DNA of 63,624 bases from Bacteroidota bacterium (GTDB lineage Bacteria > Bacteroidota > Bacteroidia > Sphingobacteriales > Sphingobacteriaceae). Location: positions 1 through 63,624 of the forward strand of contig JABDBW010000004.1 in NCBI GenBank assembly GCA_013288485.1, written 5' to 3'. Below are positions 29,963 through 43,682 of the stretch, in pieces; position 1 is the stretch's first letter, and every line of letters begins with the position of its first letter. Position numbers and translations under genes: made by a program. The notes below the pieces were generated by a model. That model did no database searches. It was not told the origin of the DNA and worked only from the letters and a program-made list of their open reading frames with translations.

Positions 29963-30334
29963 ATGGAAGTACAAAGTTTACCGGTTAATTATTTGCCCAT
30001 CATATTTCAAATGGTGGTTGCTTTTGGGTTTGTGGTTACCACCATGTTTGTAACCCATAAAATAGGCCCCAAACGTAAAACTAAAGATAAACTTACACCG
30101 TTTGAGTCGGGCATCGAGGTTATCGGCAACGCTCGCACACCCATATCCATTAAATACTTCCTGGTTGCCATATTGTTTGTGCTGTTTGATGTAGAAGTTA
30201 TATTTATGTACCCCTGGGCCATAAATTTCAGGGAACTGGGCACAACCGGCATGGTAGAGATGTTTATTTTTATGGGTACGCTGCTGCTGGGCTTTATCTA
30301 CATCATAAAAAAAGGCGCGCTTAACTGGGATTGA
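29963..30334 (+). CDS. nuoA: NADH-quinone oxidoreductase subunit A
   Basis: TPFESGIEVIGNARTPISIKYFLVAILFVLFDVEVIFMYPWA. Confidence 0.97.
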   Translation: MEVQSLPVNYLPIIFQMVVAFGFVVTTMFVTHKIGPKRKTKDKLTPFESGIEVIGNARTPISIKYFLVAILFVLFDVEVIFMYPWAINFRELGTTGMVEMFIFMGTLLLGFIYIIKKGALNWD

Positions 30335-30341
30335 AGCATCC

Positions 30342-30376
30342 AAAGTCTCCCCTACCGGGGGAGATTTAGAGGGGGC
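30342..30376. repeat. Dispersed repeat, 35 nt, copy 1 (nuoA-nuoB spacer)
   Basis: AAAGTCTCCCCTACCGGGGGAGATTTAGAGGGGGC, identical to 48311-48345. Confidence 0.95.
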
Positions 30377-30501
30377 CGATGGGCTTTTGTTTAGAACAAT
30401 TCTAAATATATTTCTTCGTTATTAGTGTACTTATTACAATCAATTTTATCGTAAATTTGCGCTTTCCGTTCAGTTGGAATAGGTTTTGAATGATATAACT
30501 C

Positions 30502-31044
30502 ATGAGTGATATTCAAATAGTAAACGCCCCTGCGGGTGTTGAGGGCACGGGTTTTTTTGCTACCTCGCTGGATAAGGCAGTAGGTTTGGCCCGTGCAAAT
30601 TCGTTATGGCCGCTGCCTTTTGCCACCTCCTGCTGCGGTATTGAATTTATGGCCACCATGGCCTCACATTATGACCTGGCAAGGTTCGGGGCCGAACGCT
30701 TAAGCTTTTCGCCGCGCCAGGCCGACCTGTTAATGGTAATGGGTACCATAGCCAAAAAAATGGGCCCGGTGCTTCGCCAGGTATACCTGCAAATGGCCGA
30801 GCCCCGCTGGGTATTAGCTATGGGGGCCTGCGCTTCCAGCGGCGGTATTTTTGATAGTTATTCGGTGCTGCAAGGCATTGACGAGATTATACCGGTTGAT
30901 GTATATATACCCGGCTGCCCGCCACGGCCCGAAGCCGTGATTGATGGTTTCATGCGGATACAAGACCTGGTAAAAACAGAATCAACACGCAGGAGAAATA
31001 CCCCCGAGTACCAAAAATTATTAGCTTCATACGGCATACAGTAA
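30502..31044 (+). CDS. nuoB: NADH-quinone oxidoreductase subunit B
   Basis: PFATSCCGIEFMATMASHYDLARFGAERLSFSPRQADLLMVMGT; CPPRPEAVIDG. Confidence 0.98.
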   Translation: MSDIQIVNAPAGVEGTGFFATSLDKAVGLARANSLWPLPFATSCCGIEFMATMASHYDLARFGAERLSFSPRQADLLMVMGTIAKKMGPVLRQVYLQMAEPRWVLAMGACASSGGIFDSYSVLQGIDEIIPVDVYIPGCPPRPEAVIDGFMRIQDLVKTESTRRRNTPEYQKLLASYGIQ

Positions 31045-31547
31045 TGGGTAAGATAACTAACGAAGAGCTTTTAAAAAGTATCAGCAATAAATTCGAAGGG
31101 CAAATAACCGTTGTTGGCGAGCCATATGGCTTATTGACGCTGGAAACTCAGTCCGAAAATATAATTGCCCTGTTAAGCTATTTAAAATCCGACCCAAACC
31201 TTCAATTGAGTTATTTAACTGATATTACCGCTATTCACTACCCGGAGCAGGAAAAAGCTATTGGGGTAATTTATCATTTGCATAGCCTGGTAAATAATGT
31301 GCGTGTACGTATAAAAGTGTTTATTGACGCTGATAATTGCCATATACCAACAGCAACTGAGCTATGGAATGGCGCTAACTGGATGGAGCGGGAAACGTAT
31401 GATTTTTTCGGGGTGATATTTGACGGACATCCCGACCTGCGCAGAATATTAAATGTTGACGACATGACAGCTTTCCCGATGCGAAAAGAATTTCCGCTGG
31501 AGGACCCTAACCGTGTTGATAAAAAGGATTATTTTTTTGGACGATAA
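31044..31547 (+). CDS. nuoC: NADH-quinone oxidoreductase subunit C
   Basis: WMERETYDFFGVIFDGHPDLRRIL...FPLEDPNR. Confidence 0.97.
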   Translation: MGKITNEELLKSISNKFEGQITVVGEPYGLLTLETQSENIIALLSYLKSDPNLQLSYLTDITAIHYPEQEKAIGVIYHLHSLVNNVRVRIKVFIDADNCHIPTATELWNGANWMERETYDFFGVIFDGHPDLRRILNVDDMTAFPMRKEFPLEDPNRVDKKDYFFGR

Positions 31548-31550
31548 AAG

Positions 31551-32762
31551 ATGCAGAACCACCCGGTATATACGGATAACGATCCGCAAGGCGAGCTTTC
31601 AACCCTTAACCTGGGGCCAACACACCCGGCCACGCATGGCGTGTTCCAGAATGTGCTGCAATTGGATGGCGAAAGAATTGTAAGCGGCGTATCCACCATA
31701 GGGTATATTCACCGGGCTTTTGAAAAAATTGCTGAACATAGGCCGTTTTACCAGATCACCCCGTTAACCGACCGCATGAATTATTGTTCATCGCCCATAA
31801 ACAATATGGGCTGGCACATGACGGTTGAAAAATTATTGGGTATTACCATGCCCAAACGTGTTGACTACCTGCGCGTAATTGTGATGGAACTGGCACGTAT
31901 ATCCGATCATATTATTTGCAACGGTGTTTTGGGCGTTGATACCGGGGCCTTTACCGGCTTCCTGTACATGATGGAATACCGCGAAGCAATTTACGAGATA
32001 TATGAAGAAGTTTGCGGCTCGCGTTTAACAACCAATATAGGCCGTATAGGCGGCTTCGAACGTAATTTTAACGCTATAGCTTTTAACAAGCTGCGTAAAT
32101 TTTTAAAAGATTTTCCACCGGTATTAAAAGAGTTCGAATCATTGTTTAACCGTAACCGCATATTTATTGACCGCACTAAAGGTGTGGCTTGTGTTACTGC
32201 CGAAGATGCTTTAAGTTATAGCTGGAGCGGCCCGTTATTACGTGCTGCCGGCGTTGATTATGATGTTAGGGCTATGGAGCCCTATTCCTCATACGAAGAT
32301 TTTGATTTTGAAGTGCCCGTGGGCGATAATGGCGATGTTTACAGCCGGTTTTTAGTTCGTAACGAAGAGATGAAACAAAGCCTGCGCTTAATTGAGCAGG
32401 CCCTGGCAAAGCTGGAAAAAGAGCCTTCGGATATTTTCCATGCCGATGTGCCCGAATTTTATTTGCCTCCCAAAGAGGATGTGTATACCAATATGGAAGC
32501 GCTCATTTATCACTTTAAGATAGTGATGGGCGAAATACCCGCGCCTGCATCCGAAGTTTATCATGCAGTTGAAGGCGCCAATGGCGAGTTGGGTTTTTAC
32601 CTGGTAAGCGATGGCGGACGCTCGCCCTACCGTTTGCATTTTCGCAGGCCAAGTTTTATTAATTACCAGATGTACGCCCCCATGAGCAGGGGGATGCTGC
32701 TGTCTGACGCGATAATAAACATGAGTAGTTTAAACATTATAGCCGGAGAATTAGATGCTTAG
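31551..32762 (+). CDS. nuoD: NADH-quinone oxidoreductase subunit D
   Basis: NLGPTHPATHGVFQNVLQLDGE; YIHRAFEKIAEHRPFYQ; GVDTGAFTGFLYMMEYRE. Confidence 0.98.
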   Translation: MQNHPVYTDNDPQGELSTLNLGPTHPATHGVFQNVLQLDGERIVSGVSTIGYIHRAFEKIAEHRPFYQITPLTDRMNYCSSPINNMGWHMTVEKLLGITMPKRVDYLRVIVMELARISDHIICNGVLGVDTGAFTGFLYMMEYREAIYEIYEEVCGSRLTTNIGRIGGFERNFNAIAFNKLRKFLKDFPPVLKEFESLFNRNRIFIDRTKGVACVTAEDALSYSWSGPLLRAAGVDYDVRAMEPYSSYEDFDFEVPVGDNGDVYSRFLVRNEEMKQSLRLIEQALAKLEKEPSDIFHADVPEFYLPPKEDVYTNMEALIYHFKIVMGEIPAPASEVYHAVEGANGELGFYLVSDGGRSPYRLHFRRPSFINYQMYAPMSRGMLLSDAIINMSSLNIIAGELDA

Positions 32763-33279
32763 AGTGGAAGAAGCCGAACAAGTTCCGGTTGAGTTTTCAG
32801 CCGCGCTAACCGATCAGTTTGCTGATATCGTGAGACGTTATCCCGAAGGGAAACAAAAATCGGCACTACTGCCCATACTGCATTTGGTACAGGCTGAATT
32901 TGGATGGGTTAGCGCCCCCGCGATGGATAAAGTTGCCGCATATTTAAAACTGGAGCCTATTGAAGTTTACGAAGTGGCCTCGTTTTACAGCATGTACTTT
33001 TTGCGCCCGCAGGGTAAATATGTTTTAGAGATTTGCCGTACCGGGCCATGCTGCCTGGTTGGAGCCGAAAAAATAATGGACCACCTGGAGCAAAAGTTGG
33101 GGGTTAAAGAAGGCGAAGTTACCGCCGATGGTTTATTTAGCTGGCGTGGCGTTGAATGTTTAGCCGCCTGCGGTTACGCGCCTGTGCTGCAAATTGGCCC
33201 TGAATATACTTTTTACGAAAATTTAACCAATGCATCGGTTGATAAGCTGATCGATGATTTAAAAGCAAAAGGCAAATGA
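32755..33279 (+). CDS. nuoE: NADH-quinone oxidoreductase subunit E
   Basis: VYEVASFYSMYFLRPQGKYVLEICRTGPCCLVG...ECLAACGYAPVLQIG (2Fe-2S thioredoxin-like). Confidence 0.97.
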   Translation: MLRVEEAEQVPVEFSAALTDQFADIVRRYPEGKQKSALLPILHLVQAEFGWVSAPAMDKVAAYLKLEPIEVYEVASFYSMYFLRPQGKYVLEICRTGPCCLVGAEKIMDHLEQKLGVKEGEVTADGLFSWRGVECLAACGYAPVLQIGPEYTFYENLTNASVDKLIDDLKAKGK

Positions 33280-33461
33280 TCAGCAAGGGAATGATGATTT
33301 TTCGCGATATACTGTATACCATATTGGTTGTGGTGTTGTTGCTGCCATCAAACCCGATAGGTGTAAACCCTGTGTTAAAAATGCTTTTTATAGTGATTGC
33401 TGTTGGGTCGCGTATATGGCAGCACGTTAATTATTATAAACAAACAGGTAAAATATATTAA
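33276..33461 (+). CDS. Small two-TM protein A of the nuoE-nuoF insertion
   Basis: ATGA overlap with nuoE stop; ends ...SRIWQHVNYYKQTGKIY*. Confidence 0.8.
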   Translation: MISKGMMIFRDILYTILVVVLLLPSNPIGVNPVLKMLFIVIAVGSRIWQHVNYYKQTGKIY

Positions 33462-33517
33462 TAAAATGGGACGCACATGTACCACATAAAGACTTAAAAA
33501 AAGGCAAATAACTGACA

Positions 33518-33697
33518 ATGGACAATGCAAATTTGATATTAGGAGATTCATTATTTGCATTTGGTTTAATTTTGGCAGTTATAACCGGCGGCATAAAGGA
33601 ATACACGATCATCCTGTTACCGCTGCTTACCGTAGCTTTTGCAACATGTGTGGTAAGGCATATTAATCATTACAATGACACCGGAAGGTTTTATTAA
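33518..33697 (+). CDS. Small two-TM protein B of the nuoE-nuoF insertion (not in the ORF track)
   Basis: Manual translation MDNANLILGDSLFAFGLILAVITGGIKEYTIILLPLLTVAFATCVVRHINHYNDTGRFY* (59 aa); C-terminal motif shared with A and C. Confidence 0.8.
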   Translation: MDNANLILGDSLFAFGLILAVITGGIKEYTIILLPLLTVAFATCVVRHINHYNDTGRFY

Positions 33698-33731
33698 TAC
33701 TTGGCGATCATATAAAGTTGAGGCAACAAAA

Positions 33732-33923
33732 ATGAAAGAAGTTAGCGACAGGACAAGATTAATACTGTGGGATGCAGCATTGCTGATAGGAATTGTGCTG
33801 ATATTTGCGCTGCACATTCCGGGTAATTACCGCATCATTATTGGTTTTAGTACTTCACTCATCTTGTCAAACGCTTTAAGAAATCACATTGCAGTTTATA
33901 AACTGAGCGGCAAAATATATTAG
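33732..33923 (+). CDS. Small two-TM protein C of the nuoE-nuoF insertion
   Basis: Preferred start MKEVSDRTRLILWD at 33732 (track ORF begins at 33675); ends ...NALRNHIAVYKLSGKIY*. Confidence 0.8.
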   Translation: MKEVSDRTRLILWDAALLIGIVLIFALHIPGNYRIIIGFSTSLILSNALRNHIAVYKLSGKIY

Positions 33924-33928
33924 CAGTA

Positions 33929-35293
33929 ATGGCACGCAAACTACTATTAGAACATATAAACGTACCCGGAATTGATACCTACGAGGTGTACCGCTCAAAG
34001 GGTGGCTACGCGGCAGTTGAGAAGGCTTTAAAAACGCTTTCTCCTGATGAGGTGGTTGAAGAGGTTAAAAAATCGGGCTTGCGTGGCCGTGGCGGCGCGG
34101 GTTTCCCTACCGGGATGAAATGGGGCTTTTTGGCCAAGCCGGAAGGTGTGGCCCGTTACCTGGTTTGCAACGCCGACGAAAGCGAACCCGGAACTTTCAA
34201 GGATCGTTACCTGATGACCTATCTTCCACATTTATTAATTGAAGGGATGATAATAGGCAGTTACGCTTTGGGTGCAAAGGTATCGTACATTTACGTGCGC
34301 GGCGAAATGATGCCGCAAATACGCATACTTGAAAAAGCCATTGCCGAAGCAAAATCCGCCGGATTTTTAGGAAAAAATATATTAGGCACGGGTTATGACC
34401 TGGAGCTGTATGTGCAGCCGGGCGGCGGCGCTTACATCTGCGGCGAAGAAACCGCGCTGTTAGAATCGCTGGAAGGCAAGCGGGGTAACCCGCGTATTAA
34501 ACCGCCTTTCCCGGCAATTGCCGGTGTTTGGGGTTGCCCAACGGTGGTAAATAATGTTGAATCAATTGCCGCGGTAGTGCCTATTATTAACGAAGGCGGC
34601 GAGGAATATGCAAAAGTAGGCGTTGGCCGCAGCACAGGTACCAAGCTAATATCAGCAGGTGGTAATATAGTTAAGCCGGGCGTGTATGAAATTGACCTGG
34701 GCCTGCCCGTTGAGGAGTTTTTATATTCAGACGAATACTGCGGCGGTATAGCCAATGGCAAACGTTTAAAGGCGGTTGTAGCGGGTGGGTCATCAGTGCC
34801 GATACTGCCGGCAAACCTGTTTTTGAAAACAATAAATAATGAGCCGCGCCTGATGAGCTATGAGTCGCTATCAGAGGGCGGTTTTGTTAGTGGAACGATG
34901 TTAGGCTCTGGCGGTTTTATCGCTTTTGATGAGGACCAGTGCATTGTTCGCAATACCTGGAACTTTACCCGTTTTTATCATCATGAAAGTTGCGGGCAAT
35001 GTTCGCCATGCCGCGAGGGAACCGGGTGGATGGAAAAAGTATTGCACCGTTTGGAGCATGGCCACGGCAGTTTAAGTGATATGGACCTGCTGGTTGACGT
35101 ATCTAAAAAGATTGAAGGAAATACTATTTGCCCGCTGGGCGATGCGGCAGCATGGCCTGTAGCCAGCGCCATACGCCATTTCAGGGATGAGTTTGAATGG
35201 CACGTGACGCACGCAAGCGAAGCAGTTTCAAGAAACTACGGACTTGCACATTATGCGGATCCGTTGCCCAAACCCGAGCCAGCGGCACAATAA
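33929..35293 (+). CDS. nuoF: NADH-quinone oxidoreductase subunit F
   Basis: GLRGRGGAGFPTGMKWGF; CNADESEPGTFKDRYLM; ESCGQCSPCREGTGWM. Confidence 0.98.
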   Translation: MARKLLLEHINVPGIDTYEVYRSKGGYAAVEKALKTLSPDEVVEEVKKSGLRGRGGAGFPTGMKWGFLAKPEGVARYLVCNADESEPGTFKDRYLMTYLPHLLIEGMIIGSYALGAKVSYIYVRGEMMPQIRILEKAIAEAKSAGFLGKNILGTGYDLELYVQPGGGAYICGEETALLESLEGKRGNPRIKPPFPAIAGVWGCPTVVNNVESIAAVVPIINEGGEEYAKVGVGRSTGTKLISAGGNIVKPGVYEIDLGLPVEEFLYSDEYCGGIANGKRLKAVVAGGSSVPILPANLFLKTINNEPRLMSYESLSEGGFVSGTMLGSGGFIAFDEDQCIVRNTWNFTRFYHHESCGQCSPCREGTGWMEKVLHRLEHGHGSLSDMDLLVDVSKKIEGNTICPLGDAAAWPVASAIRHFRDEFEWHVTHASEAVSRNYGLAHYADPLPKPEPAAQ

Positions 35294-35299
35294 GTAGAT

Positions 35300-35387
35300 T
35301 GTCATTCTGAGCGATAGCGAAGAATCTTCTACGAGCGATTAGCAGGGCGAACAAGATGTTTCGCTATCGCTCAATATGACAAAAAGA
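35300..35387. repeat. Imperfect inverted-repeat element in the nuoF-nuoG spacer
   Basis: GTCATTCTGAGCGATAGCGAAGAATCTT ... AAGATGTTTCGCTATCGCTCAATATGAC. Confidence 0.85.
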
Positions 35388-35420
35388 AGTAAATAAAAAT
35401 TTGACTAATATAGAACGTCA

Positions 35421-36419
35421 ATGAAAGTTACAATAGACGGAATATCCGTAGAAGTAGAGGCAGGAACTACTATCCTGAATGCCGCGAGGATTATTGGTGG
35501 TGATATTGTTCCGCCTGCTATGTGCTATTATTCCAAACTGAAAGACAGCGGCGGTAAATGTCGTACCTGTTTGGTAAAGGTGAGCAAGGGTTCTGAAAAA
35601 GATCCTCGCCCTATGCCTAAACTGGTAGCCTCGTGCCGCACCACGGTAATGGATGGCATGGAAGTGCAAAACATCACCTCGCCCGAAGTTATTGAGGCGC
35701 GCAAAGGGATTGTTGAGATGTTATTAATTAATCACCCGCTGGATTGTCCTATATGCGACCAGGCCGGCGAGTGCCATTTACAAGACCTTGGTTTTGAGCA
35801 TGGAGCCGTTAAAACCCGTTATGAATTTGATCGCCGCACGTTCAACAAAATAGATATTGGCGATAAGATACAACTGCACATGACGCGCTGTATTTTATGC
35901 TACCGCTGTGTTTATGTTGCCGACCAGATCACCGACCACCGCATACATGGGATATTGAACCGCGGCGACCATTCGGAAATATCAACCTATATTCACGCTG
36001 CTATTGAAAATGATTTTTCGGGAAATGTAATTGACGTATGCCCTGTTGGCGCGCTTACTGATAAAACCTTCCGCTTTAAGAACAGGGTATGGTTCACTAA
36101 CGCGGTTGAGGCCCACCGCGATTGCGACCATGCAAACTGCAACGGAAAAGTAACACTATGGTATAAAGGGGAAGAAGTTTTACGGGTTACAGCACGTAAA
36201 GATGTATATGGCGAAGTGGAAGAATTTATTTGCAACACCTGCCGGTTTGATAAAAAGAAAACAGCCGATTGGGTGATAGAAGGGCCGCGCAAGGTATCGC
36301 ATAAGTCGGTTATCAGTTCTAATCATTACGAAATGTTAAACCCGCCACCTGTTGTTAAAAACAACCCGGTTTTAATAGAGGCCAACAAAGAACAGTTTGA
36401 ACGCGAAACACGCTTATAA
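35421..36419 (+). CDS. nuoG: NADH-quinone oxidoreductase subunit G, short form (Fe-S N-terminal region only)
   Basis: 2Fe-2S ferredoxin domain with Cys residues; HPLDCPICDQAGECHLQDLGFEHG; CILCYRCVYVADQ; DVCPVGALTDKTFRFKNR; only 332 aa. Confidence 0.95.
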   Translation: MKVTIDGISVEVEAGTTILNAARIIGGDIVPPAMCYYSKLKDSGGKCRTCLVKVSKGSEKDPRPMPKLVASCRTTVMDGMEVQNITSPEVIEARKGIVEMLLINHPLDCPICDQAGECHLQDLGFEHGAVKTRYEFDRRTFNKIDIGDKIQLHMTRCILCYRCVYVADQITDHRIHGILNRGDHSEISTYIHAAIENDFSGNVIDVCPVGALTDKTFRFKNRVWFTNAVEAHRDCDHANCNGKVTLWYKGEEVLRVTARKDVYGEVEEFICNTCRFDKKKTADWVIEGPRKVSHKSVISSNHYEMLNPPPVVKNNPVLIEANKEQFERETRL

Positions 36420-37450
36420 TGGAATTAACAGACATCATCGTAAAATTTATTTTGGTATTTATCATTTTCGCGATAAGCCTGGTGATAGCTATGTACTCTA
36501 CTTATGCAGAGCGTAAAATAGCTGCATTTTTCCAGGACAGGATAGGCCCCAACCGCGCGGGACCCTGGGGTATTTTCCAGCCTTTAGCAGATGGCGGCAA
36601 GATGTTTTTGAAAGAAGAGATCATCCCAACCAACGCCAGCGGGTTCTTATTCATCGCAGGCCCGTCATTAGCTATCATGACCGCCTGTATTGGTTCGGCG
36701 GTAATTCCGTGGGGGCAAAAATTAACCATTGGGTCGCATGTTATCGATCTGCAGGTTGCCGATATTAATGTGGGAGTACTATACATTTTTGGTGTGGTTT
36801 CCTTAGGCGTTTACGGGGTGATGATTGGCGGATGGGCATCTAACAATAAATACTCTTTATTGGGCGCTATACGCGCGGCATCGCAAAATATAAGTTACGA
36901 AATATCAATGGGGTTGTCAATCATCGCTTTATTGATGGTTACAGGTACATTGAGCCTTCGCCAGATAGCCGAACAGCAGCATGGCTGGCATTGGAACATA
37001 CTTTACCAACCGGTTGGCTTTTTATTATTTATTGTTTGCGCTTTTGCCGAAACTAACCGTACCCCGTTCGATCTGCCCGAATGTGAAACCGAGCTCGTGG
37101 GTGGTTACCATACCGAATACTCATCAATGAAACTGGGTTTTTACCTTTTTTCTGAGTATATCAATATGTTCATTTCATCGGCGGTAATGGCTACGTTATA
37201 TTGGGGCGGCTATAATTATCCCGGCATGGATTGGGTGCTGGCGCATACCGGCCCGGCTATTGGCCCGCTGATTGGGACCGCGGTTTTATTTGCCAAAATA
37301 TTTTTATTCATATTCTTTTTTATGTGGGTGCGGTGGACGATCCCCCGTTTCCGATACGATCAGTTAATGGACCTGGGCTGGAAAATTTTAATACCGCTGG
37401 CCATAGCAAATATTGTGATCACCGGTATTGTTATTACTTTAATAAAATAA
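36419..37450 (+). CDS. nuoH: NADH-quinone oxidoreductase subunit H
   Basis: YAERKIAAFFQDRIGPNRAGPWGIFQPLADGGKMFLKEE; AETNRTPFDLPECETELVGGYHTEYSSMK. Confidence 0.98.
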   Translation: MELTDIIVKFILVFIIFAISLVIAMYSTYAERKIAAFFQDRIGPNRAGPWGIFQPLADGGKMFLKEEIIPTNASGFLFIAGPSLAIMTACIGSAVIPWGQKLTIGSHVIDLQVADINVGVLYIFGVVSLGVYGVMIGGWASNNKYSLLGAIRAASQNISYEISMGLSIIALLMVTGTLSLRQIAEQQHGWHWNILYQPVGFLLFIVCAFAETNRTPFDLPECETELVGGYHTEYSSMKLGFYLFSEYINMFISSAVMATLYWGGYNYPGMDWVLAHTGPAIGPLIGTAVLFAKIFLFIFFFMWVRWTIPRFRYDQLMDLGWKILIPLAIANIVITGIVITLIK

Positions 37451-37452
37451 AG

Positions 37453-37950
37453 ATGGAACCATTAAGTAATAAACGAAAAGTAATTGAACAGAAGCCGCTT
37501 AATTTTTTAGAGCGTGCTTACCTGCCCGCTATTATACAGGGGCTGGCAATTACCATGAAGCATTTTTTCAGGAAGCCGGTAACCATCAGCTACCCCGAAG
37601 AGAAGCGTGAGTTTTCTGAAAACTTTCGCGGTATGCACTCGCTAAAGCGTGATGAGGATGGACGCGAACGCTGTACTGCCTGCGGTTTATGCGCGTTATC
37701 ATGCCCTGCCGAAGCCATAACTATGATAGCTGCCGAACGCCAGCTGGGTGAAGAGAATTTATATCGCGAAGAAAAGTACGCGGCGGTATATGAAATAAAT
37801 ATGCTGCGCTGTATTTTTTGCGGCCTTTGCGAAGAAGCCTGCCCCAAAGAGGCCATTTATTTGGATGGCGATATTGTACCGGCAGATTATTTAAGAAAAG
37901 ATTTTATTTACGGAAAAGACAAATTAGTTGAGGCCCCGTTAAATCAATAA
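37453..37950 (+). CDS. nuoI: NADH-quinone oxidoreductase subunit I
   Basis: ERCTACGLCALSCPAEAITM and RCIFCGLCEEACPKEAIYLD two 4Fe-4S motifs. True start inferred at MEPLSNKRK (37453); the track ORF (37231) over-extends into nuoH. Confidence 0.96.
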   Translation: MEPLSNKRKVIEQKPLNFLERAYLPAIIQGLAITMKHFFRKPVTISYPEEKREFSENFRGMHSLKRDEDGRERCTACGLCALSCPAEAITMIAAERQLGEENLYREEKYAAVYEINMLRCIFCGLCEEACPKEAIYLDGDIVPADYLRKDFIYGKDKLVEAPLNQ

Positions 37951-37966
37951 AGAAGTTTTATACCTT

Positions 37967-37976
37967 TGCCCAACTC
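37967..37976 (+). promoter_or_regulatory. Possible internal nuoJ promoter
   Basis: TATACCTTTGC (TAnnTTTG) in the nuoI-nuoJ spacer followed by a TTGCCC/GGGCAA hairpin; position approximate. Confidence 0.4.
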
Positions 37977-38011
37977 TTTTTGGAAGGGCAAGTGTTTTGA
38001 AATAAATAAAC

Positions 38012-38509
38012 ATGAATACATTTTACTTCATCGCGTTTTTATCTATATTTTTCTCCATTTTGGTGATCACCGCCAAAAACCCGGTGCATAGCATATTGTA
38101 TTTGATCCTTACATTTTTTACGTTTACCATTCACTATATTTTATTGAACGCCCAGTTTTTGGCGATAGTTAATTTTATAGTGTACATGGGCGCCATATTG
38201 GTATTGTTCCTGTATACGCTGATGCTCATCAACCTGAATAAAGAATCGGAACCGGCTAAATCAAACCTGGTAAAAATAGCAGGAGTTATTGGCGGCTGTT
38301 GCTTTTTGGTAACCATTATTGCCTCAATAAAAGCATTAGGCGCCTCGCCGGCCGTAGTGCTTAAAGACCCCAGCCTGGGCCTGGTAAAAAATTTAGGAAA
38401 GGTATTGTTCAACGAATATTTATTGCCATTCGAAATATCATCCGTATTGCTGTTATCGGCAATGGTGGGCGCTGTTTTACTGGCTACAAAAGAACCTAAA
38501 ACTACGTAA
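38012..38509 (+). CDS. nuoJ: NADH-quinone oxidoreductase subunit J
   Basis: AKNPVHSILYLILTFF...FLAIVNFIVYMGAILVLFLYTLMLINL. Confidence 0.96.
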   Translation: MNTFYFIAFLSIFFSILVITAKNPVHSILYLILTFFTFTIHYILLNAQFLAIVNFIVYMGAILVLFLYTLMLINLNKESEPAKSNLVKIAGVIGGCCFLVTIIASIKALGASPAVVLKDPSLGLVKNLGKVLFNEYLLPFEISSVLLLSAMVGAVLLATKEPKTT

Positions 38510-38838
38510 TGGAAAACATAGCAAATACCATACAAACCATTCCGCTTAATGAGTATATCCTGTTAAGTTCTATCATATTTTCGATAGGGGTTATAGGTGT
38601 ATTGATCCGCCGTAATGCTATCGTGATATTTATGTCGGTTGAGTTGATGTTGAATTCGGTAAACCTTTTATTGACCGCTTTTTCAGTTTATCACGGCGAT
38701 GCCAGCGGACAGGTTTTTGTATTTTTTATTATGGCCCTTGCCGCTGCCGAAGTAGCCGTAGGCTTAGCCATCATAGTAATGATATACCGTAACACCAATT
38801 CAATAGATATTAATGTGCTGAACAGGTTGAAATGGTAA
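38509..38838 (+). CDS. nuoK: NADH-quinone oxidoreductase subunit K
   Basis: IGVLIRRNAIVIFMSVELMLNSVNLLLTAFS...AAAEVAVGLAIIVMIYRN. Confidence 0.97.
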   Translation: MENIANTIQTIPLNEYILLSSIIFSIGVIGVLIRRNAIVIFMSVELMLNSVNLLLTAFSVYHGDASGQVFVFFIMALAAAEVAVGLAIIVMIYRNTNSIDINVLNRLKW

Positions 38839-38839
38839 C

Positions 38840-38930
38840 CCCCCAGCCCCCTAAAGGGGGTGGGATTAGAGTGACAGTAATAAACTAATAAAAAGCCTTC
38901 GTTCCCCCTTTAGGGGGTTAGGGGCACAAC
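38840..38930. repeat. Head-to-head pair of a dispersed C/G-run repeat in the nuoK-nuoL spacer
   Basis: CCCCCCAGCCCCCTAAAGGGGGTGGG and inverted GTTCCCCCTTTAGGGGGTTAGGGGC; related copy near 19290-19317. Confidence 0.85.
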
Positions 38931-38937
38931 TTAACAC

Positions 38938-40842
38938 ATGGATAAATACATCTGGCTTATTCCTATATTACCGTTAGCCGGTTTCGTTATTAACGGCCTC
39001 GGCCGCAATAGCCTGTCGAAAGGCGCTATAGGCTTTATCGGTAGTTTTTTAGTTTTAATTTCATTTGGGTTAAGCGTTGGCGCGTTCTTACAGATACATG
39101 CCACTAGGCAACCTATAGTTGTCGACCTGTTCGACTGGTTTGGCGCAGGCTCGTTAAAGATCAGCTTCTCGTTTTTGATTGACCAGCTAAGTTCATTAAT
39201 GCTGCTCATTATTACCGGCGTTGGCTTTTTGATCCACCTGTACTCGGTAGGGTATATGCATGATGATAAGGGTTATGGCAAGTTTTTCGCTTACCTTAAC
39301 CTGTTTGTTTTCTTTATGCTGTTACTTGTATTAGGCTCCAACTACCTGGTAATGTTTATAGGCTGGGAAGGCGTGGGGCTTTGCTCGTATTTACTTATTG
39401 GTTTCTGGTATACCAACCCAAGTTATGCTGATGCCGCAAAAAAAGCGTTCATTATGAACCGCATTGGCGACCTGGGTTTTTTGATCGGCATATTTTTAAT
39501 ATTCAACACTTTCGGCAGTATAGCCTATGCTGATGTTTTTGGTAAAGCAGCGACAATGCATTCGGGCGATGGGCCGTTCGTGCTCATCACTTTACTATTA
39601 TTTGTTGGCGCTATAGGTAAATCGGCACAACTGCCCTTATTTACCTGGCTGCCCGACGCTATGGCCGGCCCTACGCCAGTATCGGCATTAATACACGCCG
39701 CTACAATGGTTACCGCGGGCGTATATATGATAGCCCGTTCAAATATCCTGTTCACGCTGGCGCCCGATACGATGGAGGTTGTGGCCATTGTAGGTTTAGC
39801 CACCGCGCTATTTGCCGCCTTAATAGCCTTAACGCAAACTGATATTAAAAAAGTACTGGCTTATTCAACCGTATCGCAACTAGGTTATATGTTTTTAGGT
39901 TTGGGTGTAGGCGCTTATACCGGTGCATTCTTCCATTTGCTTACCCATGCATTCTTTAAGGCTTTATTATTCCTTGGTGCAGGTTCGGTTATCCACGCGG
40001 TTAGCGGCGAGCAGGATATGCGCAAAATGGGAGGGTTAAAAGGCAAGCTGCCCATCACTTTTGTTACTATGCTGATCGGTACGTTAGCTATATCCGGCAT
40101 CCCACCATTTGCAGGATTCTTTTCAAAAGATGAGATTTTATATTACACTTCCCTTCATAGTCCAATAATGTATTGGATCGGTGTTATTACCGCCATGCTT
40201 ACCTCGTTCTATATGTTCAGGTTGATGTTCCTTACATTTTGGGGTAAATTCAGGGGGACACATGAACAAGAACATCATTTGCATGAATCGCCATTAAGCA
40301 TGACCATCCCATTAATAGTATTGGCAATTCTATCTGCTATAGGTGGTTTTATAGGCTTGCCCGAAAGTTTAGGGGGGCACAATTGGCTGGAACATTGGTT
40401 AAGACCTTTAATTTCCCCGACTCCGGGGGGACTAGTGTATGGCGGAGTATCTGCTGAACGCCTAATGATGGGTATTTCTGTTTCAGTTGCTTTGATAGCC
40501 TTAATATACGCCTACATTAAATACGTCAAAAAAGCCCATGTGCCGGTTGCCGATACGGAAGAACGCCCCGCATTGGCAAATTTATCATACAACAAGTTTT
40601 ATATCGACGAAATTTATGATGCGCTGATCCGCAAGCCGCTCGACGCTTTGTCGGGTTTCTTTTATAAGGTGGTTGATAAGCTGGGTATTGACGGCCTGGT
40701 GAACGGTTTAGGCAAGGGAACAATTGAAACCAGCAAGGGGCTCCGTTTATTACAAACGGGCAATGTTGGGTTTTATATATTTATGATGGTGGTAGGCATT
40801 ATTGCCCTGCTGCTATATAGTTTAAACGGATTTTTCATATAA
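38938..40842 (+). CDS. nuoL: NADH-quinone oxidoreductase subunit L
   Basis: GWEGVGLCSYLLIGFWY; GKSAQLPLFTWLPDAMAGPTPVSALIHAATMVTAGVY; LLTHAFFKALLFLGAGS. Confidence 0.98.
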   Translation: MDKYIWLIPILPLAGFVINGLGRNSLSKGAIGFIGSFLVLISFGLSVGAFLQIHATRQPIVVDLFDWFGAGSLKISFSFLIDQLSSLMLLIITGVGFLIHLYSVGYMHDDKGYGKFFAYLNLFVFFMLLLVLGSNYLVMFIGWEGVGLCSYLLIGFWYTNPSYADAAKKAFIMNRIGDLGFLIGIFLIFNTFGSIAYADVFGKAATMHSGDGPFVLITLLLFVGAIGKSAQLPLFTWLPDAMAGPTPVSALIHAATMVTAGVYMIARSNILFTLAPDTMEVVAIVGLATALFAALIALTQTDIKKVLAYSTVSQLGYMFLGLGVGAYTGAFFHLLTHAFFKALLFLGAGSVIHAVSGEQDMRKMGGLKGKLPITFVTMLIGTLAISGIPPFAGFFSKDEILYYTSLHSPIMYWIGVITAMLTSFYMFRLMFLTFWGKFRGTHEQEHHLHESPLSMTIPLIVLAILSAIGGFIGLPESLGGHNWLEHWLRPLISPTPGGLVYGGVSAERLMMGISVSVALIALIYAYIKYVKKAHVPVADTEERPALANLSYNKFYIDEIYDALIRKPLDALSGFFYKVVDKLGIDGLVNGLGKGTIETSKGLRLLQTGNVGFYIFMMVVGIIALLLYSLNGFFI

Positions 40843-40843
40843 A

Positions 40844-42292
40844 ATGACGGTTAGTATACTAATATTTTTGCCGGTAATTGCGGCGTTAGCAGTTTTGTTA
40901 TTCAAAAACGAAACGGCGAAACACGCGGCATTATTTTTCGCTGTTGTTGAGTTGGCTGTAGCCGGGGTATTCCTGGCTAAATTTACGCCCGACGCCAGTA
41001 CGCAGTTTGCCGTTAATGCGCCGTGGATAGTTAACTTCAACATTTATTTTAATGCCGGTATTGATGGTATCAGCATGATGATGGTATTGTTAACCACCCT
41101 GCTTGTACCGCTTATTATTTTAACTACTTACCAGCATCAGTATAAAAACGCGCGCGCTTTTTATGCCCTGATATTATTTATGCAGGCAGGTTTGCTGGTA
41201 GTATTTACCGCGTTAGACGGATTTTTATTTTATGTGGGCTGGGAAGCGGCATTAATACCTATTTACTTTATCTGTTCGCTTTGGGGCGGCGAAAACCGGG
41301 TACGCATCACCATCAAGTTTTTCATTTACACGTTTGCAGGGTCACTGTTTATGTTGTTAGGTATTATTTACCTGTACCTGCTCACTCCCGGTAAAACTTA
41401 CGACCTTCATTCATTTTACAACATTGGTTTGCCTCCCGAAAAGCAAAATATTGTGTTCTGGGCATTCTTTTTGGCTTTTGCCATTAAAATGCCTTTGTTC
41501 CCTTTCCATACCTGGCAGCCCGATACCTATACCGAAGCCCCATCGGCTGGTACCATGATGTTATCGGGCATTATGCTTAAAATGGGTATTTACGGCGTTA
41601 TCAGGTGGCTTATTCCAAATGCCCCTGCTGGGTTGGTTACCTGGCAAAACCTGGTTATTGTGCTTTCGGTAATTGGTGTTGTATATGCATCCGTTATCGC
41701 GTTTACTCAAACCGACGGCAAGCGGCTGGTGGCTTATTCATCCATAGCGCACGTTGGGCTCATAGCAGCGGGTATATTTGCCTGGACCACGCAGGGTTTG
41801 CAGGGCGCCATGATACAGATGCTGAGCCATGGTATTAATGTGGTAGGCATGTTCTTTATATGGGATATCATCAGCACCCGCTTAAAAACGCGCGACATAG
41901 GACAATTAGGCGGTATAGCTAAAGTTGCGCCGCACTTTGCCATAGCATTTTTTATTATTGTGTTAGGTACGGTAGCGTTGCCATTAACCAACGGTTTTAT
42001 AGGCGAATTTTTATTATTGAACAGTGTTTACCAATACAACGTTTGGATGGCCGCTATAGCAGGGTTAACCATCATATTTGGCGCGGTGTATATGCTGCGT
42101 ATGTATAAAAAAGTGATGCAGGGCGAAACCAATGCGTTAACTGCCGTATTTGCAGATATTCATGGCTCAGAGAAAATTGCTTTAGGTATAATTTGTATTT
42201 TAATAATAGGTATAGGTATATATCCGCAGCCAATACTGCATATATCCGCAGCCGCCGTTGAAAATTTGATAAACACTATAAAGATCAGGTAA
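40844..42292 (+). CDS. nuoM: NADH-quinone oxidoreductase subunit M
   Basis: YVGWEAALIPIYFICSLWGG; FAIKMPLFPFHTWQPDTYTEAPSAGTMMLSGIMLKMG. Confidence 0.97.
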   Translation: MTVSILIFLPVIAALAVLLFKNETAKHAALFFAVVELAVAGVFLAKFTPDASTQFAVNAPWIVNFNIYFNAGIDGISMMMVLLTTLLVPLIILTTYQHQYKNARAFYALILFMQAGLLVVFTALDGFLFYVGWEAALIPIYFICSLWGGENRVRITIKFFIYTFAGSLFMLLGIIYLYLLTPGKTYDLHSFYNIGLPPEKQNIVFWAFFLAFAIKMPLFPFHTWQPDTYTEAPSAGTMMLSGIMLKMGIYGVIRWLIPNAPAGLVTWQNLVIVLSVIGVVYASVIAFTQTDGKRLVAYSSIAHVGLIAAGIFAWTTQGLQGAMIQMLSHGINVVGMFFIWDIISTRLKTRDIGQLGGIAKVAPHFAIAFFIIVLGTVALPLTNGFIGEFLLLNSVYQYNVWMAAIAGLTIIFGAVYMLRMYKKVMQGETNALTAVFADIHGSEKIALGIICILIIGIGIYPQPILHISAAAVENLINTIKIR

Positions 42293-42302
42293 AATTTAAT
42301 CA

Positions 42303-43682
42303 ATGAATACGTTAATAGTCATATCTGTTTTACCTATAGTGCTGCTGTATTTGGGGCTATATAAAATGCAAAAAGCATTGCTGCCTGTAACAGTAGTTGG
42401 TTTATTGGTGGCATTAGGTTTAGCGGTAAACCAATGGAACAATAACGCCCGGCCTGAATATCATGGCATGATATTGTTTAACAACTACGCCATCGCTTTT
42501 TCTTCGCTCGCCATTATATCAACAATACTGATCCTGCTGCTATCAAAAGGATATTTTGAAAGGATAAGTCAGCATATAGCAGAGTATTATGCTATTATCC
42601 TGTTTTCGCTCGCTGGCATCGTTGTAATGGTGTCCTACTATAATTTAACTATGCTTTTTATCGGCATTGAAATAATGTCGGTGAGCCTGTATATACTTGC
42701 GGGTATTAAAAAGAATGATTTTGCATCGAATGAAGCCGCGCTTAAATACTTTTTAATGGGCGCTTTTTCAACCGGGTTTTTATTATTCGGCATCACGTTG
42801 GTTTATGGCTCAACCGGTTCATTCGGGATCGACGGCATACAAAGCTGGGTATCTGAACACCGCATAGGCGCAGATCCAATGCTGTATACAGGGGTAATAT
42901 TAATTATTGTTGGCTTATGCTTTAAAGTGGGCGCTGCGCCCTTTCATTTCTGGACACCCGATGTTTACGAAGGCTCGCCCACTTTGATAACCGCGTTCAT
43001 GTCAACGGTATCAAAAACTGCGGCGTTCGCGGCCTTTCTTCGCCTTTTCGCTGCTTGTTTTCCTCTATTTTATTCTTTCTGGACCCCTTTATTCATCGTT
43101 ATTGTTATTATAACGTTGTTTATTGGTAACATAACCGCGCTATACCAGCAAAGCTTTAAGCGTATGCTTGCCTATTCAAGTATTTCTCACGCGGGTTATT
43201 TGCTGCTGGCTATTTTGGCATTGGGGGCAGGCTCGGCCAATTCAATATTTGTGTATGCTTCCGCTTATTCTATCGCCTCTATTATAGCGTTTGGAGCTTT
43301 AATACTGGTACAGCAGGAAACTGGCAGCGATAATTTTGAAAGCTTTAATGGTTTGGCAAAAAACAATCCTTTTTTGGCTTTTGCATTAACGGTGGCTATG
43401 TTATCATTAGCGGGCATTCCGCTTACTGCGGGCTTTATAGGTAAGTTTTATATATTTAATACTGTATTATCCCAACAGCATACAGGGCTGGCTATTATAG
43501 CAGTTATTAATGCCATTATCAGTATTTTCTATTATTTCAGGGTTATTGTAGCGATGTATTTCCGCACTGCCGAGCGAGCGGAAATAACTGTGCCATCCTA
43601 TTACCTGTTTGTTTTGGGCCTTGCGGCGCTGGCAACTGTATTGATCGGGGTGTACCCGCAATTTATTACCGGGCTTATTTAG
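42303..43682 (+). CDS. nuoN: NADH-quinone oxidoreductase subunit N
   Basis: IEIMSVSLYILAGIKKNDFASNEAALKYFLMGAFSTGFLLFG; KVGAAPFHFWTPDVYEGSPT. Confidence 0.97.
   Translation: MNTLIVISVLPIVLLYLGLYKMQKALLPVTVVGLLVALGLAVNQWNNNARPEYHGMILFNNYAIAFSSLAIISTILILLLSKGYFERISQHIAEYYAIILFSLAGIVVMVSYYNLTMLFIGIEIMSVSLYILAGIKKNDFASNEAALKYFLMGAFSTGFLLFGITLVYGSTGSFGIDGIQSWVSEHRIGADPMLYTGVILIIVGLCFKVGAAPFHFWTPDVYEGSPTLITAFMSTVSKTAAFAAFLRLFAACFPLFYSFWTPLFIVIVIITLFIGNITALYQQSFKRMLAYSSISHAGYLLLAILALGAGSANSIFVYASAYSIASIIAFGALILVQQETGSDNFESFNGLAKNNPFLAFALTVAMLSLAGIPLTAGFIGKFYIFNTVLSQQHTGLAIIAVINAIISIFYYFRVIVAMYFRTAERAEITVPSYYLFVLGLAALATVLIGVYPQFITGLI

Follow-up and report, generated by a model that had tools for sequence, protein, structure and literature searches.

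The window, a stretch of 63,624 nt from a member of the Sphingobacteriaceae (assembly GCA_013288485.1, contig JABDBW010000004.1), contains a nuoA-nuoN operon on the forward strand (29963..43682), in which nuoA, B, C, D, E, F, G, H, L and N were assigned by NCBIfam, and nuoI, J, K and M by position and sequence. Between nuoE (32755..33279, 174 aa; TIGR01958 nuoE_fam, 169.6 bits, over cut-off) and nuoF (33929..35293, 454 aa; TIGR01959 nuoF_fam, 579.8 bits, over cut-off), and on the same strand, lie three small genes, A (33276..33461), B (33518..33697) and C (33732..33923), encoding predicted two-helix membrane proteins of 61, 59 and 63 aa. A profile built from A, B and C and their first relatives matched them with E values of 1.6e-24, 1.9e-22 and 1.3e-20, respectively. 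The start of A overlaps the stop of nuoE in an ATGA (33276-33279), and C ends (33923) 5 nt before the ATG of nuoF (33929). The start of C was placed at the ATG at 33732; an alternative start at 33675 (82 aa) would run into B. Further downstream, the NuoG of the window (35421-36419) is 332 aa long, covers the N-terminal 260 of the 606 TIGR01973 positions, and is without the long C-terminal domain.

Local alignment of the three products with BLOSUM62 gave scores of 58 for A-B, 43 for A-C and 52 for B-C; of 2000 shuffles, 0, 5 and 1, respectively, scored as high. Because these scores lie beyond shuffled chance, the products of A, B and C are homologues, as judged from their sequences. The original prediction had described three small related ORFs between nuoE and nuoF, and its coordinates and tails proved correct on re-reading. 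Each gene represents a subfamily with its own signature: ..MIFRDxLY..WQHVNYYKQTGKIY for subfamily A, LILxDSLFA..CVVRHINHYNDTGRFY for subfamily B, which is the most frequent type in Mucilaginibacter, and RTRLILWDAAL..NHIAVYKLSGKIY for subfamily C.

Comparison with databases did not reveal any accepted match of the family in Pfam, where scattered matches below the cut-off involved single members only, or in NCBIfam, nor any convincing match in PHROGs. No match was found in the PDB, by profile or by fold, and no sequence or fold homologue was found among known complex I accessory subunits; this last result bears on known families only, and not on the functional class. DUF202 (PF02656), likewise a family of small hydrophobic multi-helix proteins, was considered and rejected as a chance match, with 13.3 bits for gene A against a gathering cut-off of 23.4, and only 1 of 19 members matching. 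A literature search did not return any paper joining Mucilaginibacter with nuoE and nuoF.

Whole genomes were searched with the profile, and close relatives were sought by a contig scan seeded with subfamily B. In all, 94 intact copies were extracted from 65 genomes. In Mucilaginibacter, the genus of soil bacteria to which the window belongs, 63 of 150 genomes carry the family, with one to three copies each. The other 87 lack it, and in most of these the nuoE-nuoF pair is intact. Among the genome records with close relatives, the nearest is the Mucilaginibacter MAG Umea_bin-01567, with a NuoE that is 97% identical to that of the window. Two neighbouring genera also contain carriers, one represented by G044 and by a pseudogene in G027, and the other by G054. 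The order-level search (401 genomes) gave matches in these three genera only, and the phylum-level search (395 genomes) in Mucilaginibacter only; no member was found in the viral contigs, plasmids and phage records searched. Profile matches outside the nuoE-nuoF gap (E 0.001-0.05) mostly covered the profile only in part and fell in long or broken frames; the three best whose flanks were checked had no nuo genes nearby, and these matches were discarded as chance. The family thus appears to be undescribed and, within the genomes searched, specific to this lineage. It is the sort of small protein that the length cut-offs of gene callers tend to miss.

The family is tightly linked to the nuo genes. 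All 94 copies lie inside the nuoE-nuoF gap, a count whose members are not independent, since a single ancient insertion followed by vertical inheritance would look alike. Examination of 24 longer loci did not reveal a copy at another nuo junction. The gap length steps with the copy number, from ~186 nt with one copy to ~385 with two and ~640 with three, and the spacing remains tight at both ends: the first copy usually starts between -10 and +16 nt relative to the nuoE stop, and in 62 genomes 1-7 nt separate the end of the last copy from nuoF. Gap values of 532 and 606 (G042 and G016) were excluded, as nuoE extraction was presumed to have failed, and both entries were dropped from the tree described below. 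Where the family is absent, the nuoE-nuoF gap is usually ≤16 nt, often a -1 overlap, indicating that the absence is not a search artefact. At least ten of the larger gaps in family-free genomes were searched for remnants, and none was found except the pseudogene of G027 (L021/L074), a decayed two-helix gene with an in-frame TAG and no usable start. The family is likewise missing from the two near-complete Mucilaginibacter genomes lacking nuoE and nuoF (G195 and G262). Given vertical descent, this absence and the linkage to nuo genes are not independent observations.

The genes show clear signs of selection at the protein level. Between the window and its closest relative in this comparison (G303), dN/dS was 0.22 for A, 0.00 for B (8 synonymous and 0 nonsynonymous changes) and 0.09 for C, with changes concentrated at third codon positions, compared with 0.03 for nuoE and 0.04 for nuoF; the value for nuoD was excluded as unreliable due to a truncated contig. 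Orthologue pairs with dS < 0.5 had dN/dS values mostly of 0.04-0.3, with a few near 0.5. Across the family, frames are intact and dN/dS is well below 1, the copy in G027 being the only decayed one seen. Over 39 close pairs, pN/pS fell along the protein, from 0.34 for the N-terminal part with the first helix to 0.19 for the second helix and 0.13 for the final 15 codons, making the tail the most constrained part. Purifying selection nevertheless acts on the whole protein, not on the tail alone.

Three positions are invariant in 94 of 94 copies: an Asp within the membrane near the start of helix 1, a His in the tail, and an aromatic residue at His+4 (Y in 92, F in 2). The conserved tail follows the pattern H-[IV]-N-x-Y-K-x-T-[GK]-[KR]-[IF]-Y. 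Selection and invariant residues together are strong signs that these are translated, functional proteins. The original prediction depended on the tail and the gene position being conserved in related genomes, and both are. Its proposal of translated proteins is supported by dN/dS, and that of selection on the tail by the pN/pS values. Its description of a shared tail on an otherwise divergent protein holds for the tail, but conservation extends beyond it, given the invariant Asp of helix 1 and the purifying selection on the remaining protein.

AlphaFold modelling of B with 30 relatives predicted a helical hairpin, with helices at residues 3-22 and 30-55 and a mean pLDDT of 90.4. Net charge averages +0.9 over the first 8 residues, +0.1 over the loop and +3.0 over the final 16. 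By the positive-inside rule, this pattern suggests an N-in/C-in topology, and we infer that both termini are cytoplasmic, on the same side of the membrane as the peripheral arm of complex I.

A protein tree, built from few columns, separated types A, B and C, plus a further type with an HxxWYK tail. All three of types A, B and C are represented in distant Mucilaginibacter lineages, in agreement with the old tandem duplication that had been proposed from the window, and they extend to the neighbouring genera, with an A-like copy in G054, and C-like and B-like copies in G044. There are at least three old paralogue types, and from this spread the duplications probably predate Mucilaginibacter. 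Genomes with several copies nearly always carry different types. The three types occur together only in the window genome and G303, and the gene order differs, being A-B-C in the window and B-A in its relatives, which indicates that the gap has been reshuffled. On a nuoE tree, the presence of the family requires 18 parsimony changes, compared with ~48 for shuffled labels, and 5 of the 18 are forced by well supported branches. This is consistent with a family that is old, was inherited mainly vertically and was lost repeatedly, possibly with some regain.

We hypothesized that A, B and C are lineage-specific membrane hairpins that work with complex I as accessory or assembly proteins but are dispensable, which we regard as the best single reading and to which we give an even chance. 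Speaking for it are the confinement of all copies to the nuoE-nuoF gap, the close spacing to nuoF and the purifying selection. Translation of the three would follow that of nuoE and precede that of nuoF, and with cytoplasmic C-termini their conserved tail would lie on the peripheral-arm side. As products synthesised between NuoE and NuoF, they could keep the NuoE-NuoF (NADH) module at the membrane or guide it there; alternatively, they could be small subunits packed against the membrane arm. Where a genome has several different paralogues, these would then form a hetero-oligomer or take distinct sites. Since 87 of the 150 Mucilaginibacter genomes lack the family, most of them despite having an intact nuoE-nuoF pair, complex I as such does not require it. 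The decayed copy of G027 and the lack of a sequence or fold match to known accessory subunits also count against this reading. More tentatively, as a possibility that we favor less, complex I of Mucilaginibacter may have one to three paralogous two-helix subunits, acting in the membrane arm or in module anchoring, without homologues in other bacteria or mitochondria, and gained once, duplicated and differentially lost. If so, the composition of complex I would differ among species of one genus.

Lineage-specific proteins beside the 14 core subunits of bacterial complex I have precedents. The complex of Paracoccus denitrificans has the supernumerary subunits NDUFS4, NDUFS6, NDUFA12 and a PIMT methyltransferase, proven by structure and described on the hydrophilic domain, three of them with mitochondrial homologues (PMC11522691). 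The two-helix family resembles these in being an extra, lineage-specific set of proteins, but differs in that it is a predicted membrane hairpin with no PDB homologue. In Thermus thermophilus, Nqo16 forms a wedge between peripheral-arm core subunits (PMC8762328). This accessory protein is likewise restricted to a lineage, E. coli and eukaryotes having no counterpart, whereas the two-helix proteins are predicted to be intramembrane and occur as tandem paralogues.

The main rival to a role in complex I is a passenger function, which we consider a doubtful but serious possibility. A, B and C would then descend from a single landing in a permissive junction of a strongly expressed operon, followed by duplication, and would serve a membrane function unrelated to complex I, with the operon providing no more than their expression. 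The patchy presence on the nuoE tree, with its 18 changes and 5 forced ones, speaks for this reading, and several relatives have unrelated genes in the same gap, so that position is weaker evidence than it appears. Typical cargo families, however, are not confined in this way: no copy was found outside the gap in the 65 genomes or at other nuo junctions in the 24 longer loci, and the distance to nuoF is held within a few nt.

The same start and stop overlaps and few-nt spacings on both sides could instead reflect cis-acting spacer or leader ORFs, whose translation tunes the output of NuoF relative to NuoE by translational coupling, and whose products are irrelevant. This explanation is unlikely, because the amino acid sequence is under purifying selection throughout, with the Asp, His and aromatic residue invariant in 94 copies, and because the copy number varies from 0 to 3 while the spacing stays tight, none of which a spacer would require. 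Selfish or toxin-like proteins (e.g. type I toxin-like) parasitising the operon would also be small, hydrophobic, repeated and patchy, but are highly improbable given the single locus, with no copy elsewhere in the genomes searched or in the viral contigs, plasmids and phage records, the strongly conserved polar residues of the two helices, the clustered, apparently vertical distribution, and an Rfam scan of the region that gave nothing, including no antisense RNA.

If the family is tied to complex I, it would present the gain, duplication and loss of accessory subunits in progress inside a single bacterial genus, with species of 0, 1, 2 and 3 copies directly comparable, and would offer a test of how and why a 14-subunit respiratory complex gains subunits. 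If it is not, it would still be an undescribed family of small membrane proteins under selection.

The nuoE-nuoF junction appears to be a recurrent landing place for lineage-specific genes. A second orphan family, of basic proteins of 107-112 aa (MASQKDKDYH...DKRRRNSTRKSNQK), is present in 5 of 150 Mucilaginibacter genomes (G136, G244, G310, G146 and G313; loci L123-L127), and its only Pfam match is to TnpV, below the cut-off. Like the two-helix family, it is confined in the genus to the nuoE-nuoF gap, but it is basic and apparently soluble, has no sequence similarity to the two-helix proteins, and was never seen together with their genes. The gap of small-genome relatives (L055, L056, L058, L059 and L060) contains a SAM-dependent methyltransferase gene (~215 aa, Methyltransf_23, E 7e-17), and that of L025 encodes a 102-aa protein. 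Extra ORFs are also present at the nuoF-nuoG junction, in L183 for a four-helix-bundle-like (S23-like) protein and in L200 for a Uma2 endonuclease-like protein, both resemblances by eye. The variety of inserts at the two junctions strengthens the passenger explanation; the methyltransferase may also be read in the opposite direction, by analogy with the PIMT-type extra subunit of Paracoccus complex I. In some related genera, the nuoE-nuoF gap contains intergenic repeats of the form AGATATGAGA...TCTCATATCTAAAA (L004, L006, L012, L014, L016, L018, L020, L023 and L037), and in L037 (G054) two repeat arms flank the small two-helix gene.
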